Shown here: positions 15,718-23,501 of the stretch, piece by piece
Position numbering within the stretch: the first letter of the stretch is position 1
Layout: every line of letters begins with the position of its first letter
DNA from: Opitutia bacterium
GTDB lineage: Bacteria; Verrucomicrobiota; Verrucomicrobiia; Opitutales; UBA953
Assembly: GCA_947470855.1 (NCBI GenBank)
Contig: CANIUQ010000009.1
Location: forward strand, 1 to 63,409
Direction: 5' to 3'
DNA length: 63,409 bases
Made by a program: the position numbers and the translations under genes
The notes under the pieces: generated by a model
Seen by the model: the letters and a program-made list of their open reading frames with translations, nothing else
The model's database searches: none
Told to the model about the DNA's origin: nothing

Positions 15718-15764
15718 GGGATGGGGCTGGATTAAGACACCAACTCCCCTAGACCTTGAGGGCA

Positions 15765-16778
15765 ATGAAGAGAAAAGCAAAGCCGGACTCCGAAGACACA
15801 CTGAAAAAGGTTACGATGCATACCCTTAAATTGGATGCTTCGCAGGCCGAAAAACTCCGTCTCCTCTGCCTCGGTAAAGGTTGGGTAAGTGCCGTCGTGG
15901 ATCATGCTGCTTTTGCTTTCAAAGGACCGCAAATCAATGTGGTACATTATCAATCTGGTAAATGCGTCATCTCCGGCAAGGGCACCGAAGAATTTGTGAA
16001 GTTCATCCTCGAACCCGAGGTCACTGGCCAAGCGGTTTTAGGCTACGACGCTGAACTTAATCCCGAATGGTTTGAAGAACACGCTGGTCTCGATGAGTCA
16101 GGCAAGGGAGACTTATTTGGTCCGGTAATTTCGGCCTGCGTTATTGCTGATGGCGATACAGTAAAGCAATGGATTAAACTGGGGGTTAAAGATTCCAAAA
16201 AACTCACCGATGGTCGCATCGCTGAATTAGATAAAATGATTCGCGAGACACCGGGAGTGGCAGTGCGTACGACCTTTGCGCGAATGGCGAAGTATAACGA
16301 ACTACATTCACGCTTCGGAAAAAACCTTAATCGCCTACTCGCTTGGATGCATGCGACCTCGTGCGAAGAAGCTTTAAAGGCTTACGAGCAATTGCATGGT
16401 CGACGACCTGCCTGGGGCCTGCTTGACCAATTCTCGGAAGAGCCACTCGTACAAAAAGAGTTAGCCAGAAAAAATGTAAATTTTGATCTTCGCATGCGCA
16501 CGAAAGCTGAATCGGATCCAGTCGTAGCAGCCGCCTCCATCGTTGCTCGCGCCGCCTTTGTTCGTGAACTCGAGCGCCTCTCCGCTGACGGAAATGTAAA
16601 ATTACCCAAAGGTTCGGGGGCTGATGCCAAAGCCGCAGCCATGGAATTAGTCGGCCGTCTAGGTCCCGCCATCTTGGTCAATTTTGCCAAACTACATTTT
16701 CGAACCGCCTACGAAGCGCGAGGTCTCGAACCCCCCGAAGCCAAACCTTTTATCCGAGGCCGCAAAAAAGCGGAGTAA
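15765..16778 (+). CDS. rnhC: Ribonuclease HIII
   Basis: RNase HIII cleaves RNA in RNA/DNA hybrids. The 337-aa product has an N-terminal TBP-like substrate-binding domain (about 10-95) and the catalytic domain with GLDESGKGDLFGPV, the DES/G variant typical of HIII. KDSKKLTDGRI and ASIVARAAFVREL carry further family residues. I choose ATG 15765, preceded by GAGGG at short spacing; a TTG at 15756 or a later ATG is possible. rnhB follows after 3 bp, so the organism carries two type-2 RNases H in one transcript. Confidence 0.92.
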   Translation: MKRKAKPDSEDTLKKVTMHTLKLDASQAEKLRLLCLGKGWVSAVVDHAAFAFKGPQINVVHYQSGKCVISGKGTEEFVKFILEPEVTGQAVLGYDAELNPEWFEEHAGLDESGKGDLFGPVISACVIADGDTVKQWIKLGVKDSKKLTDGRIAELDKMIRETPGVAVRTTFARMAKYNELHSRFGKNLNRLLAWMHATSCEEALKAYEQLHGRRPAWGLLDQFSEEPLVQKELARKNVNFDLRMRTKAESDPVVAAASIVARAAFVRELERLSADGNVKLPKGSGADAKAAAMELVGRLGPAILVNFAKLHFRTAYEARGLEPPEAKPFIRGRKKAE

Positions 16779-16781
16779 CTT

Positions 16782-17531
16782 TTGGCCTCACTTGCACAGT
16801 TTGACCGCAAAAAAGGCAACGGTCGGCCTGGCATCACGGGCATTGATGAAGCGGGTCGAGGCTCTCTCTGCGGACCAGTTGTCGCCGCCGCTGTTTTTTT
16901 AGACGCAGGTTTTTATGGCGAACCTCGCTGGGTGCGAATGCTCTCTGGCGCCAACGATTCCAAAAAACTTTCCCCTGCTAAAAGACTCGAACTCCATCAA
17001 ACAGTGATGGAAATGCAAAGCGAAGGAAAGCTTCGGGCAGTTTGGGCGGAAGCCTCCGTCTTAGAAATCTCTGCCCATAATATTTTAGGTGCCACACGAC
17101 TCGCAATGGGAAGATGTCTGACGCAACTCGCTCAAGGAGTGATGGCCAACCTGTACCCAGCAGCTGGCACCGAAGGCGAGTTATTTGGACGAAGCGACGA
17201 GCGAAATATTTTAGTCCTCGTCGATGGTTTACCGCTTCGACCATTTAGTTGGGCTCACGAAGCCGTTAAAAAAGGCGACGGCAAAAGTCTAACTATCGCC
17301 CTGGCCTCCATTGTGGCGAAAGTTGAGCGCGATCGACTACTCACCGAAATGGATGCTCAATACCCCGAGTACGGGTTTGCGAATCATAAAGGGTACGGCA
17401 CGCCCGAACATGTAGAGGTTTTACGAAGACTGGGAGCCTGCCCTGCTCATCGAGAATTGTTTGTTCGGGGAATTTTGGCGGGCGAAGAACCTCCCCCGGA
17501 ATCGCATCCCGAGTTCGATTTTAATACCTAA
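16782..17531 (+). CDS. rnhB: Ribonuclease HII, TTG start
   Basis: RNase HII nicks DNA at embedded ribonucleotides and hybrids. The 249-aa product has GIDEAGRGSLCGPVVAAAV, NDSKKLSPAKR, VDGLPL, LASIVAKVERDRLL and HKGYGTPEH, all catalytic-core landmarks. It is longer than usual because of an insertion around residues 118-138 (LYPAAGTEGELFGRSDER). No ATG precedes the catalytic motif, so the start must be TTG 16782. A good GGAG ribosome site at 16772-16775, inside the end of rnhC, decides this. The stop abuts the bioC stop on the other strand. Confidence 0.93.
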   Translation: MASLAQFDRKKGNGRPGITGIDEAGRGSLCGPVVAAAVFLDAGFYGEPRWVRMLSGANDSKKLSPAKRLELHQTVMEMQSEGKLRAVWAEASVLEISAHNILGATRLAMGRCLTQLAQGVMANLYPAAGTEGELFGRSDERNILVLVDGLPLRPFSWAHEAVKKGDGKSLTIALASIVAKVERDRLLTEMDAQYPEYGFANHKGYGTPEHVEVLRRLGACPAHRELFVRGILAGEEPPPESHPEFDFNT

Positions 17532-18233
17532 TTAAAGGGCAACAGCATCGACCAATAACCAAGCCCAAGTGGCCACAACCCCATCGGCCTTCGGATGAAG
17601 TCGATCGTAATCGCGAATAAGCGCTCGCAAAGTGCCCGGGCTCATCCGCAGCGCTCCCGTAACTCCACTACCATGCAAGGCACGAAACAAATCGATGGCT
17701 GAAGGATAAATTTCTTCCGATTCCAAAACTCCATGTGCTTTTACTTCAAATCGAGCATGACTCAAAATTTGTAGCCACTGTGTCTCATCTCTCCAACGCA
17801 AAGGCCCCTCCCCCATCAAATCCCTTAACTCATAAAGACAGGGATCACACGGCACCCCTAATAAAAGTCTGCCATTCTTAGGTAAAGCATCGTGCCAATC
17901 TTTTAAAACCGCTACTGGATCAGCCGCCCAATGCAAAAGACCAGAAGAGGCAATCGCGGGGGTAGGCGGAATCTTGGTGAATGCATTGCGCACGCTCCAA
18001 ACTGCAGTGGGTGCATTGATCTTACCGATGGCGACCATCGCTGGCGAATTATCAGTCGCCTCAACCGAAGCTCCTTGGGCTAATAAAGCGTTAGTTAAAA
18101 ACCCCGTCCCCGCTCCCAACTCAAGCACCCTATCTCCAAGGTGGAAAGGGGCAAAGGCCGCCAAAGCTTCAGCAAATCGACGCTGCGGTGCCGCATGTTG
18201 ATCGTAACTATGAGCATGATCGTCAAATCGCAT
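17532..18233 (-). CDS. bioC: Malonyl-ACP O-methyltransferase (biotin synthesis)
   Basis: BioC methylates malonyl-ACP so that fatty acid synthesis can build the pimeloyl chain. The 233-aa product is a class I SAM methyltransferase with the glycine-rich loop LELGAGTGFLTNALL (about residues 39-53) and the acidic VEATDNS that follows. The start FDDHAHSYDQHAAPQRRFAEAL resembles BioC proteins (F...A..YD..A..Q...A). It is the last gene of the bio operon, and its start overlaps the stop of the esterase by one base (TGATG). Assignment as BioC and not a generic methyltransferase rests on the N-terminal motif and context. Confidence 0.85.
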   Translation of the reverse strand: MRFDDHAHSYDQHAAPQRRFAEALAAFAPFHLGDRVLELGAGTGFLTNALLAQGASVEATDNSPAMVAIGKINAPTAVWSVRNAFTKIPPTPAIASSGLLHWAADPVAVLKDWHDALPKNGRLLLGVPCDPCLYELRDLMGEGPLRWRDETQWLQILSHARFEVKAHGVLESEEIYPSAIDLFRALHGSGVTGALRMSPGTLRALIRDYDRLHPKADGVVATWAWLLVDAVAL

Positions 18234-18850
18234 CAGAGTGAGGAGGGGCTGTTTAAAAAATCAGGCAAATGGTGCCCGAGCCCCTCAATTATCTGACATC
18301 CGATGACTGCCTGACAAACTCCTTCGGGATTTAAAAGAGGATCTTCCGAGCCAACATATGCCTCCCAGCCAGAGGGCAAGCCTTGCCGTGCAAAAGTAAT
18401 TAAAGAAATTCCTGCTGGTTCAGCCAAGATATCAAGTCCAGCAAGCAAATGCCCCAGCTCATAAGGCAACTTCGCCTCTGGCATGAGAGGTAAACCTGCT
18501 CGATGACGAAAATCGGATAAGGCTGTTAGAGGTTCCTTCTCTAACCAACGACGTAACCAACGCACCTGGGATTCACTCACTTTACCGCATTTTCCATGCT
18601 CGGAACAAAAGGAAGTAAAAGGTGCAATCAGTAAAGCACGCGCGGGTAATTTCACTCCACGAGCCGCCGCTTCATACAACAAATGAGCACCGAGCGACCA
18701 GCCAATCACGGCATCGCAAGTGACTAAATTTTCCGCAGCGCCTAAAACAGGCGGGTAAATTAAATGTTGAGCTTCAGGTGCATGAGCGACCGCGATGGGA
18801 CGCAACTCCTCCAAAGAGATTCCCCATCCACCAATCCAACCGATTTTCAT
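18233..18850 (-). CDS. BioH-like alpha/beta hydrolase in bio operon
   Basis: The 205-aa product is a small alpha/beta hydrolase. The N-terminal GGWG corresponds to the HGWG oxyanion segment of BioH. The nucleophile elbow is GWSLGA (serine about residue 51), GSEDPLLNP supplies an acid, and GLGHHLPDF supplies the histidine. It sits between bioF and bioC, where BioH, BioG, BioJ or BioK type pimeloyl-ACP methyl ester esterases are often found. I infer that it cleaves the methyl ester after chain extension. It is shorter than E. coli BioH (256 aa), with a reduced cap. The stop and start overlap both neighbours, indicating tight coupling. Confidence 0.7.
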   Translation of the reverse strand: MKIGWIGGWGISLEELRPIAVAHAPEAQHLIYPPVLGAAENLVTCDAVIGWSLGAHLLYEAAARGVKLPARALLIAPFTSFCSEHGKCGKVSESQVRWLRRWLEKEPLTALSDFRHRAGLPLMPEAKLPYELGHLLAGLDILAEPAGISLITFARQGLPSGWEAYVGSEDPLLNPEGVCQAVIGCQIIEGLGHHLPDFLNSPSSL

Positions 18851-19992
18851 AAGGACACTCCTTTCAAGGTAGAAACAAAAGCGGCTAAGTGCTCAGGTTT
18901 TAATCCACGACGCAAAGAAATACGTAAACGGGCGGTGCCTAGTGGAACAGTCGGTGGACGAATCGCTGAAACCATAAAACCCGCAGCACGTAAAGCCTGT
19001 GCCACCGCTTGAGTTCGTTGAGCATCTCCCAAAACAATCGGAATGATAGGCGAATCACCTTCTGGCACCGCATAACCCGCCTTGATGAATTCCTGACGCC
19101 ATTCCCGAGAAAGTTGATGAAGTTGATCTCGCTCACCATTCATCGCTTGCACTCGAGTCATCGCTGCTAAAGCGGCAGAAGCGCAAGCAGGAGCGAGATA
19201 GGTGGAATAAATAAACTCACCAGCAAAATTAATCAAAGTATCGCGAATCTCGGTACGCTGGCAAAGCACATAAGCCCCCTGTGAACCCAAACCCTTACCG
19301 AGTGTACCCACCACAATATCCGCAGACCCACGAACGCCACAGACTTCTTGCAAACCTGATCCAGTCTTTCCATACCACCCCGTGGCATGAGCCTCATCTA
19401 AAATCCAACAAAAACCAAAACGTTTACGTAAATCCGCCAATCGAACTAAGTCCGGGGCATCACCATCCATCGAATAAACACTTTCAGTAACGACAAAGAC
19501 CGCACCCTCATGGTGTGTCGCTTCCTGTAACAAAATCTCCAAAGCATCCAAATCATTATGGGGAAATCGTCGCAGTTTTGCCTCGGACGATAAAATCCCC
19601 TCCAGCATGCTCGCATGGACTAAACGGTCCGCCAAAACTAAATCCCCAGCCTGTGGTAAACCACCGAGAACAGCGGTGTTCGCGGCGTAACCAGAATTAA
19701 AAATCAAGCCATAGGAATATCCATGCCAAGCAGCCAAAGCTTCTTCGAGTTGCCGATGTAAATCAGTATACCCCGTTACCAGAGGCGAGGCAGAGGCAGA
19801 AGCACCCCACTCTCGCAAAGCATTCACCGCGGCTTGAACAACCGCAGGGTCTTTCGCCATTCCCAAATAATCATTATCAGCAAGATTGATTCGCGAATCA
19901 CCAGAACTCCGCGCTTCTAAGCGGCGTATCAATCCGGCCGCTTCACGCTCCGCTAAAGCTTTCTGCAGACGCTCGAACAAATCCTGACTCAT
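18847..19992 (-). CDS. bioF: 8-amino-7-oxononanoate synthase
   Basis: BioF condenses pimeloyl-ACP with L-alanine, a PLP-dependent decarboxylative step. The 381-aa product is of usual length. Visible motifs are LADNDYLGMAKDP at the N-terminus, the glycine-rich FNSGYAANTAVLGGL, the cofactor-binding DEAHATGWYG, and the PLP lysine in GTLGKGLGSQGAY. It overlaps bioD and the esterase by ATGA on both sides. Confidence 0.95.
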   Translation of the reverse strand: MSQDLFERLQKALAEREAAGLIRRLEARSSGDSRINLADNDYLGMAKDPAVVQAAVNALREWGASASASPLVTGYTDLHRQLEEALAAWHGYSYGLIFNSGYAANTAVLGGLPQAGDLVLADRLVHASMLEGILSSEAKLRRFPHNDLDALEILLQEATHHEGAVFVVTESVYSMDGDAPDLVRLADLRKRFGFCWILDEAHATGWYGKTGSGLQEVCGVRGSADIVVGTLGKGLGSQGAYVLCQRTEIRDTLINFAGEFIYSTYLAPACASAALAAMTRVQAMNGERDQLHQLSREWRQEFIKAGYAVPEGDSPIIPIVLGDAQRTQAVAQALRAAGFMVSAIRPPTVPLGTARLRISLRRGLKPEHLAAFVSTLKGVSL

Positions 19993-20621
19993 ACCCAGAA
20001 TTTTTTACGAAAGATTCCCCGAGAACGTTGATAAGCCGATTCCCCAGCTAAATGTATACCGGCCTGACGCAATCCATCGCGCGTGGTTTGAGCCACAGCG
20101 GCAGAGGGCCGACGAGTACTAGCGTTCAACCAAACCCCGATACGTCCGCGATATTTTTTTTCTAAATGGGCGACACTCAAACGTGCCTGATTGATGGCAC
20201 CCAAGCGATCTTCGACAACGACAACAACATAATCGGGCTTTACCGCACGAGCGAAATCGGCCCAGTCGTGATTCTGCAAATCAAGTGGCACCGCCACTCC
20301 ACCCGCTCCTTCAATGACTTGATACTCTGCTGGTTTCAATTTTCGGTAAGCAGATAATAATTTTTTTAGTGAAAGTTTCTGACCCGCGCGAGCAGCCGCC
20401 GAAATCGGGGCCAAAGCTTCGGGTAAAGAAATAAAGGTATGGGCTTCAGCCCAACGACCCGCCGCTTTCGGAGCATCCGCGGGACGCCACACGGAAACTC
20501 CTGATTCCACTGGCTTAATCACCTGTGTCGGTCCTCGACGGGCAAAATGCCGAGCCAAGATTCCGCACACATGAGTTTTCCCCACGCCCGTGTCGTTGCC
20601 TGTAACAAAAATAATAGCCAC
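19989..20621 (-). CDS. bioD: Dethiobiotin synthetase
   Basis: BioD closes the ureido ring of dethiobiotin using CO2 and ATP. The 210-aa product from GTG 20621 starts MAIIFVTGNDTGVGKTHVCG, which carries the P-loop exactly where the family has it. VIKPVESG and VIEGAGGVAVPL are further conserved blocks. A TTG at 20645 would extend the protein by eight residues and overlap bioB; it has a GGAAGG-like upstream sequence, so it cannot be dismissed. The alignment of the N-terminus favours GTG. The gene follows bioB by 5 bp and overlaps bioF by ATGA. Confidence 0.92.
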   Translation of the reverse strand: MAIIFVTGNDTGVGKTHVCGILARHFARRGPTQVIKPVESGVSVWRPADAPKAAGRWAEAHTFISLPEALAPISAAARAGQKLSLKKLLSAYRKLKPAEYQVIEGAGGVAVPLDLQNHDWADFARAVKPDYVVVVVEDRLGAINQARLSVAHLEKKYRGRIGVWLNASTRRPSAAVAQTTRDGLRQAGIHLAGESAYQRSRGIFRKKFWV

Positions 20622-20626
20622 AGGAT

Positions 20627-21700
20627 TTAAGCTGAACAGCCACAACCACCTTCCGAACAGGAACCTCCTTCTTTCTGAGCAGCCACCAGCTCTTCAATCT
20701 TAGGCCAAGGAGCAGACTGTGCCGCGGAAGGTTCAATTTCCCCACGATGCACACGTCGTGCTTCATCAGGATGCAAAGGATGAAGCCCCAGTCGCTTCAT
20801 TAAATTCATATCTTCTTCGATATCGGGATTACCCGTGGTGAGCAATTTCTCTCCTAGGAAAATGGAGTTCGCTCCTGCGAGATAGCACAACGCTTGCGTC
20901 TCGTCCGACATATTCGCTCGACCCGCAGAGAGTCGCACCATGGCTTTAGGCATCAAAATGCGTGCAACCGCTACGGTGCGAACAAACTCGATACTATCGA
21001 CAAAACGGCGACCGGCTAAAGGTGTGCCTTCAACGGCGACCAGAGCATTGATAGGAACAGAATCAGGTTGAGGATCCAGGTTCGCTAATTCGACCAGCAT
21101 CTTTAATCGATCATCCACGGTTTCGCCCATACCAATGATGCCACCCGAACAAACCTCTAATCCCGCTTTGCGGACATTCGACAAGGTTTGCAGACGATCA
21201 TCATAAGTTCTGGTGGTGATAATTTTTGAATAATGCTCCCGAGAGGTGTCGAGATTGTGATTATAGACATCACAGCCCGCTTCCTTCAAACGCTTTGCCT
21301 GTGCTTCCGACACCATACCCAGCGTACAACAAACTTCTAAACCCATTTCTTTAACACCCGACACGGTATTTAAAACGCTATCAAACTGCTTACCGTCAGC
21401 GACGCGACGCCAAGCGGCACCCATACAAAAGCGCGTTGCGCCACCGGCTTTCGCGCGACGAGCGTCGGCCAAAATCGTCTCGGTCTCCATGAGCGCTTCC
21501 GCTTCGACAAATGTATTATGATGCACTGATTGCGGACAGTAAGCGCAGTCCTCTGGGCAAGCACCGGTTTTAATCGACTTCAAGGTGCAGAGCTGAATTC
21601 CAGCAGGATCTTGCTGCGCTTGGTGCGCTTGCTGCGCCTTGAAAATCAAGGTGTTAAGCGGCAAATCATAGAATGCGCGCGCTTCGGCTAGGTTGGGCAT
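20627..21700 (-). CDS. bioB: Biotin synthase (radical SAM)
   Basis: BioB inserts sulfur into dethiobiotin. The 357-aa product has the radical-SAM cysteines in [11 protein letters not shown] (C-x3-C-x2-C) and the conserved [23 protein letters not shown] and [12 protein letters not shown], which carries the arginine near the 2Fe-2S cluster, are also present. The C-terminus ends in an unusual cysteine-rich tail ([13 protein letters not shown]). I choose ATG 21700, 13 bp after the bioA stop. An ATG at 21754 would overlap bioA by 41 bp and add 18 unconserved residues. Confidence 0.94.
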
Positions 21701-21713
21701 AGGAGTGGGTGTT

Positions 21714-23096
21714 TTAGGAAAGTGAGTGAACTTCGAGTTTAGGTAAAACTTCATCGACCGCTAAACGCACGGCTTTAACGAGATGGCGAATCTCATCAGG
21801 CTTAATCGCAATCGGAGGAACAAAAAGAATGCTGTCAGCCAGAGGGCGAATAATCAGACCATGCTTTCGCGCGAGGAGAGAGACTTGATACCCTGCCCTC
21901 AAATCCATGGGCCAATGACGACGACGATCCGCTGGAGAAAAATCAATGGCAGCGGTTAAACCAAGCTGGCGATAACCACAAACATGGGGATGGGCAGCAA
22001 AGTTCTGCCTAATCTCACGACCGAGCAATGATGCACTTTCCGCCAACTGACCCGACTGTATCATGGGTCGTAATTTTTTCAAAGAGGCTCGCGCCACCGC
22101 ACAAGCAAGTGGATTCCCCGAAAAAGTATGCCCATGGAAAAAAGTTTTTCCCTCGGAAAAATGCCCCTGAAAAGCCGAGAAAATCGACTCCCTAGTCAGA
22201 GTCGCCGCCAGGGGTAAATAACCAGCGGCGAGTCCTTTGGCTAAACAAAGAAAATCGGGAATAACCCCTTCTTGTTCGGCGGCAGTTAAAGAACCTAAAC
22301 GTCCAAACCCGGTAAAAACTTCATCAAGAATCAAATGCACTTGGTATCTTTGGCACAAGGAGGCCACAGACTTTAAAAATCCCCAAGGCTGCTGACGCAT
22401 GCCGGCTGCACCTTGCACCCGCGGCTCGAGAATCAAGCAAGCGATACGTGACGACTCGTTTTGTAAAATTTTTTCTAACTCTTGGATCGACGATTGAACT
22501 TCCGTGGCTTGCACCTGCCCCGCGCACTCCACATGCGAAGGCGCGGAAAAGATTTTCGAATGAAATAACCAAGGCGTAAAACGCTGATGAAACCCTGAAC
22601 TATCTCCCACCGACATGGTGCCAAATGTATCCCCATGATACGCACCGCGCATGCTAATCACGCCGCGTTTTTCCTCCCGACCCATTAACTGCCAATATTG
22701 AAAGGAAAGTTTAAGTGCCACTTCGATAGCATTACTTCCATTATCCGTAAAAAAGCAGCGCGGCAAAGCTCCGTCCGTTAAACTGGCTAAGTCCTCCGCC
22801 AATTCGGAAGCGACACGATGATTTAACCCTAAAAGGGTAACATGTGCCACTTGTTCGAGTTGAGCTTTAAGGGCGGCATTCAAATCTGGATCATTATGCC
22901 CATGCACATTCGTCCAAACCGAAGCATTACCATCGAGATAACGATTCCCCTCCGCATCAATTAACCACGACCCCTCTCCTTTAACCAAGTGCAGACGCGG
23001 ATTACTGAAATACTCCTGCATCTGAGTAAAAGGATGCCAGGCGTGCTTACAGTCAGAAGCATCGATAGGAGTTATGGGGTCAGCCGAAGGCACCAC
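21714..23096 (-). CDS. bioA: Adenosylmethionine-8-amino-7-oxononanoate aminotransferase
   Basis: BioA makes 7,8-diaminopelargonic acid using SAM as amino donor and PLP. The 460-aa product has the diagnostic HAWHPFTQM near the N-terminus, [29 protein letters not shown], the PLP lysine in [16 protein letters not shown], and [15 protein letters not shown]. No in-frame ATG precedes the conserved start, so initiation must be at GTG 23096 or the adjacent GTG 23093. An ATG at 23100 is out of frame and soon stops. It is the first gene of the bio operon and lies just downstream of a BirA-type operator. Confidence 0.94.
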
Positions 23097-23106
23097 CCAT
23101 TGTTAG

Positions 23107-23121
23107 TAGGGTAAAACCCTA
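23107..23121 (-). other. Short perfect hairpin in bioA leader
   Basis: TAGGGT (23107-23112) and ACCCTA (23116-23121) form a perfect 6-bp inverted repeat with a 3-nt spacer, 11 bp before the bioA start and next to the BirA operator. It could limit ribosome access or serve as a second protein site. No T-run follows, so it is not a terminator. Confidence 0.35.
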
Positions 23122-23153
23122 TTGTTAAGCCCCAAGTGGATGTAGGTTTACAA
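23122..23153 (-). promoter_or_regulatory. Predicted BirA operator of the bio operon
   Basis: On the minus strand the site reads TTGTAAACC, 14 bp, GCTTAACAA. The established BirA operator is TTGTnAACC, 14-15 bp, GGTTnACAA, so the first half-site matches fully and the second differs at one base. It lies 26-57 bp upstream of the bioA start, where a bifunctional BirA repressor with biotinyl-AMP would block transcription. birA itself is not in this window. Confidence 0.8.
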
Positions 23154-23204
23154 TTAAAACTTAACTTAAATTACTGAATTGCAACAGTTTAAGAAAAACT
23201 TCTT

Positions 23205-23501
23205 TTACTCGAAGTCGTAAATCTTCACCGAAGACCAGTAAGATTTACAGGAATTAACGAAGTCCACGTGAATCGGGTCCACCTGATAGGCATCATGGTC
23301 GGCCTTATTTTTAAAGATAAAGATTTCCGCAAAATCGTAGGAACTATCGATGATAGGACGATCCGCAACCGTAGGACGACCGACATAACTCGAGTGTATC
23401 GATTTAATCTGCGAAAGACCGCGTAACTTCGATTCGAAGTCGGCACGCTGTGAAGCGGTTAAATCTTTGCGTAGATAAAAAAAGACGAGGTGGTGAAACA
23501 T
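23205..23501 (-). CDS. Dabb (stress-responsive alpha/beta barrel) protein
   Basis: The 98-aa product starts MFHHLVFFYLRKDLTASQRA and has the Dabb-fold features: an N-terminal histidine-bearing strand, DFAEIFIFKNKADHDAYQVDPIHVDFV near the C-terminus, and a full-domain length of about 95 aa. Dabb domains are ferredoxin-like dimeric barrels. Some cyclise polyketides and most are of unknown role. The sequence gives no substrate. It stands alone between the bio operator and rsmG. Confidence 0.8.
   Translation of the reverse strand: MFHHLVFFYLRKDLTASQRADFESKLRGLSQIKSIHSSYVGRPTVADRPIIDSSYDFAEIFIFKNKADHDAYQVDPIHVDFVNSCKSYWSSVKIYDFE

Follow-up and report, generated by a model that had tools for sequence, protein, structure and literature searches.

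A predicted BirA operator upstream of a six-gene biotin operon in an Opitutia bacterium

The window, i.e. the whole 63,409-nucleotide stretch of DNA analyzed, contains a two-armed BirA-type palindrome (positions 23122-23153, minus strand) immediately upstream of a biotin operon with the gene order bioA-B-D-F-hydrolase-C. The site is conserved in related genomes, and a BirA protein with a helix-turn-helix (HTH) domain is encoded in the same genome. Judged from these sequence data, the site very probably serves as operator in a classical BirA circuit controlling the operon. The finding is correct and ordinary, since it places a well-known control circuit in an Opitutae-type lineage, and what appears modestly new is limited to the half-site, which is asymmetric, fixed in the lineage and likely to overlap a promoter. 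A search of open-licence papers revealed no description of BirA operators in the Opitutae-type group. The result presents the classical BirA circuit as a module that can be predicted in an Opitutae-type lineage known mostly through metagenomic data, and the footprint is sharp enough for the promoter and the start codon of the operon to be placed.

Sequence and position of the predicted operator

The minus strand (23153-23122) reads TTGTAAACC TACATCCACTTGGG GCTTAACAA, exactly the sequence and position proposed in the sequence-only reading of this DNA. The left half-site, TTGTAAACC (23145-23153), is an exact match to the published half-site. The right half-site, GCTTAACAA (23122-23130), is almost invariant across the order and departs from the classical half-site at two of nine bases. 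One further base on either side belongs to the dyad (ATTGT...ACAAT), which with the flanking A and T spans 34 bp (23121-23154); both flanking bases are conserved as well. The site thus comprises inverted TTGTwAACC-type half-sites with the spacing of about 14-15 bp that is typical of such operators. It is located in the promoter region of biotin genes, 25 bases from the first GTG of the frame of bioA, the first of six bio genes.

Compared with TTGTwAACC-N14-GGTTwACAA (16 fixed bases, N14), the operator contains one mismatch. The strict BirA consensus, which PMC545781 quotes from Rodionov et al. 2002 as TTGTAAACC-[N14/15]-GGTTTACAA, gives two mismatches over its 18 bases, a G-to-C and a T-to-A change that both fall in the right half. 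The earlier count of one mismatch in 18 half-site bases therefore holds when A or T is accepted at position 5, but becomes two against the strict consensus.

Assuming the base composition of the window, the expected number of sites differing at no more than one of the 16 fixed bases is 0.016 per 1.36-Mb genome and 3e-6 in a single 250-bp upstream region. A search of the genome returned the bioA site as the sole match at one mismatch; all others had three, and three-mismatch matches were as common as those of a reversed-pattern control. The two-arm match is far above chance and would be highly improbable as a coincidence.

The sequence-only reading also suggested looking for the same site at biotin transporter genes, and this expectation was not borne out. 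BioY was not found in the genome (the control was positive in 9 of 14 named genomes), and relaxed N14 and N15 scans for a second operator gave only hits at or near the control level. Within these N14 and N15 scans, which covered the assembled 96% of the genome, the regulon appears to consist of the single bio operon.

Conservation of the site in related genomes

Within the genus, the site is located directly upstream of bioA with a 14-bp spacing, and it was detected in 28 of the 28 testable genomes that carry bioA (26 with an HTH-containing BirA and two in which BirA was not found). Among the remaining genomes of the order sample it precedes bioA in 22 of the 26 encoding HTH-BirA, with N13 or N14 spacing and at most two mismatches in 12 positions; the other four have no clear site at bioA. 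Two apparent exceptions, G002 and G125, were left out of the counts because of contig ends. The site is absent from the two bioA-carrying genomes of this sample whose BirA has no HTH (G229 and G048), and with only two such controls the association between the site and HTH-BirA in the order is suggestive only.

These frequencies represent conservation above background, though the sequences are related and the counts are therefore not independent events. Information content reaches 1.3-2.0 bits per column in the operator arms and does not exceed 0.42 in the 19 bases upstream, beyond the flanking A, so that the footprint has a sharp edge. The DNA upstream of the operator is unrelated among the same-genus genomes. 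Since this upstream sequence is not conserved, the match cannot be put down to common ancestry alone. The sequence-only reading depended on the site being kept by relatives, and every readable bioA locus of the genus does have the operator.

In a class-wide sample, the site was found upstream of bioA in one of 14 HTH-positive genomes (an order member) and in one of 26 HTH-negative genomes; bioA is possibly internal to operons there. The HTH-negative exception (G408, locus L234) carries a perfect-looking palindrome, TTGTAAACCTACTCATACAATGTGTTTACAA, about 213 bp upstream of bioA, and its BirA match is without an HTH region. In another genome (G016, locus L210, contig C12), which apparently had the site without bioA, the gene is present and split by frameshifts, with the operator intact; the frameshifts reflect either sequencing errors or decay.

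The biotin operon and its BirA regulator

The bio genes run along the minus strand from 23096 to 17532 and overlap or nearly so. Those of bioA (21714-23096; homologous start probably the second GTG, 23093), bioB (20627-21754; true start probably downstream of that of the ORF) and bioD (19989-20645) encode products scoring over the cut-offs of models TIGR00508, TIGR00433 and TIGR00347, respectively. They are followed by bioF (18847-19992; best model TIGR00858, 381 bits, under the 426-bit cut-off), a gene for a BioH-like alpha/beta hydrolase (18233-18850) and a gene for a bioC-like methyltransferase (17532-18233; TIGR02072, 95 bits, under the cut-off). The predicted six-gene order was confirmed both here and in relatives with sufficiently long loci, down to about 55% BioA identity; loci L012 and L039 showed no bioB match. 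Upstream of bioA in this genome there is a Dabb-domain gene on the same strand (23205-23501), whose conserved 3′ end is visible in the nearest relatives only (L010-L012). Two adjoining plus-strand ORFs (15756-16778 and 16782-17531) are convergent with the operon and, by sequence reading, each resemble type 2 ribonucleases H (RnhC- and RnhB-like).

The hydrolase is a compact, divergent protein (model pLDDT 94) with BioH among its top structural matches (TM-score up to 0.74, 4nmw). It resembles the BioH pimeloyl-ACP methyl ester esterase in its alpha/beta-hydrolase fold, its Ser-Asp-His triad (invariant Ser52, Asp170 and His193) and the linkage of its gene to bioC, but shares only 14-16% identity with BioH and is about 50 residues shorter. 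No match to any NCBIfam model, including a curated BioH-type model, was obtained, and the sole Pfam match, Abhydrolase_6, was under the cut-off. The protein possibly represents an unnamed family of pimeloyl-ACP methyl ester esterases.

A Pfam search of the genome revealed two ligase-type genes, one of BirA length and one shorter, which we take to be lipoate-ligase-like. The former encodes the only BirA-type biotin ligase of the genome (329 aa), with HTH_11 (residues 7-58, E 9.5e-12), BPL_LplA_LipB (92-214) and BPL_C (282-327) domains, all over the Pfam cut-offs; it can be aligned with 1bia and 4wf2, structures of E. coli BirA, over residues 15-327. The protein thus has the N-terminal HTH, catalytic and C-terminal domains of a bifunctional (group II) BirA, as anticipated in the sequence-only reading, which would have failed on a BirA lacking a DNA-binding domain. 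The best NCBIfam models were those of bifunctional BirA, at 195 bits (cut-off, 362), and TIGR00121, describing the ligase domain, was the only NCBIfam model passed. Equivalog models are narrow, and the domain composition therefore outweighs this cut-off. The HTH segment, SGDRLAKELGVSRVAIWSRLERLR, is near-invariant in the genus. The birA gene is located on another contig than the bio operon, between genes that are presumably nadC-like and coaX-like. Two genomes of the same genus (G011 and G253, about 94% complete) encode a full-length HTH BirA and no bioA was found in them; the repressor there is possibly without a target, or contigs are missing.

Ligand-driven dimerization and the switch between repressor and ligase are established features of E. 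coli BirA, and they are carried over here. With plentiful biotin, BirA would synthesize biotinyl-5′-AMP and the liganded protein would dimerize, its two winged-helix domains each binding one half of the 34-bp dyad. The bound dimer would block transcription of bioA-B-D-F-hydrolase-C by covering the promoter. Accumulation of unbiotinylated carrier protein would engage BirA as a ligase, so that the dimer would be lost and the operon expressed.

It is unlikely that the site instead serves another repressor whose palindrome is similar, the BirA HTH having lost its regulatory role. The divergence of the right half from the classical half-site would suit such a replacement, as would the palindrome of G408, found with no HTH-bearing BirA match, and the full-length BirA of G011 and G253, which indicates that the HTH can persist without a detected bioA target. 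However, left half, spacing and flanks all agree with the BirA signal given in PMC545781, the HTH is near-invariant in the genus, and within the order the site accompanies HTH-BirA (with the two HTH-less controls as the only comparison).

Candidate promoter, half-site asymmetry and known BirA systems

In several families of the order the right half hardly ever departs from GCTTAACAAT. The left half varies between TTGTAAACC, TTGTTAAGN and TTGTTAATN, and the spacing between 13 and 14 bp; one clade (L028-L030) retains an intact right half beside a left half that has drifted to CCGTTAACC. The right half-site contains a candidate −35 box, TTAACA (23123-23128, minus strand), and a candidate −10 box, TAACAAT (23099-23105, minus strand), is located 17-18 bp from it. 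Of 46 distinct sequences, 65% carry TA 17 bp downstream of TTAACA (other positions, at most 20%), and four AT-rich relatives have TATATT, TATGGT or TAAGAT 16 bp after it. A generic promoter scan listed TTAACA-18-AACAAT at this locus unprompted; in total it gave no more hits than shuffled sequences, and the −10 match is weak in this genus. As it is near-invariant, contains TTAACA and is followed by the conserved TA 16-17 bp on, the right half probably doubles as a −35 box, in which case BirA would repress by blocking the promoter.

A good −35 box, the conserved TA and the drifted left half of clade L028-L030 beside an intact right half are also what one would see if the conserved block were mainly a core promoter, with TTAACA as its −35 box and the palindrome incidental. 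This explanation is nevertheless very improbable: a promoter needs no left half, yet in the rest of the genus the left half is near-perfect, including the outer A, and a two-arm match of this quality is hardly to be expected by chance.

In most sequences of the genus the start codon (GTG or ATG; 23093 here) lies at a constant distance of 28 bases from the operator, which makes the predicted start of transcription coincide with the start codon. The bioA mRNA of the genus may accordingly be leaderless. Between the operator and the start codon there is a short dyad, TAGGGTTTTACCCTA (window positions 23104-23121, minus strand), whose register shifts and which is GC-rich in relatives (mean fold z −1.9 for 32 related sequences). 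Such a shifting dyad is the one feature in keeping with an element acting as RNA, e.g. a 5′ leader hairpin. We regard this as the most improbable of the explanations considered, since no Rfam family (riboswitch or other RNA) was matched, the operator dyad is the BirA sequence itself, and the only conserved promoter candidate places the dyad in untranscribed spacer.

For the DNA-level BirA operator, a more specific evolutionary scenario may be offered tentatively, as possible rather than probable. The operator of this order may have turned asymmetric, with the frozen GCTTAACAAT half doubling as the −35 box, drift in the other half and in the N13/N14 spacing, and the bioA mRNA of the genus leaderless under repression.

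The predicted system is like the E. coli BirA/bioO system in combining a full-length HTH-BPL-BPL_C protein with an operator of two TTGTwAACC-type arms at the biotin operon. Unlike bioO, the operator described here precedes one co-directional six-gene operon with a hydrolase gene inside, has GCTTAACAA as its right half and probably overlaps the −35 box of a single promoter. According to PMC545781, the predicted BirA regulons of delta-proteobacteria have N14 or N15 spacing and one or two sites per genome, and birA is often located apart from the operon, without a site of its own. The present system belongs to another group, in which some order members have N13 spacing and CTTAACA is the fixed form of the right half, but it shares with the delta-proteobacterial regulons the spacing of the operator, the small number of sites per genome and a separate, siteless birA.
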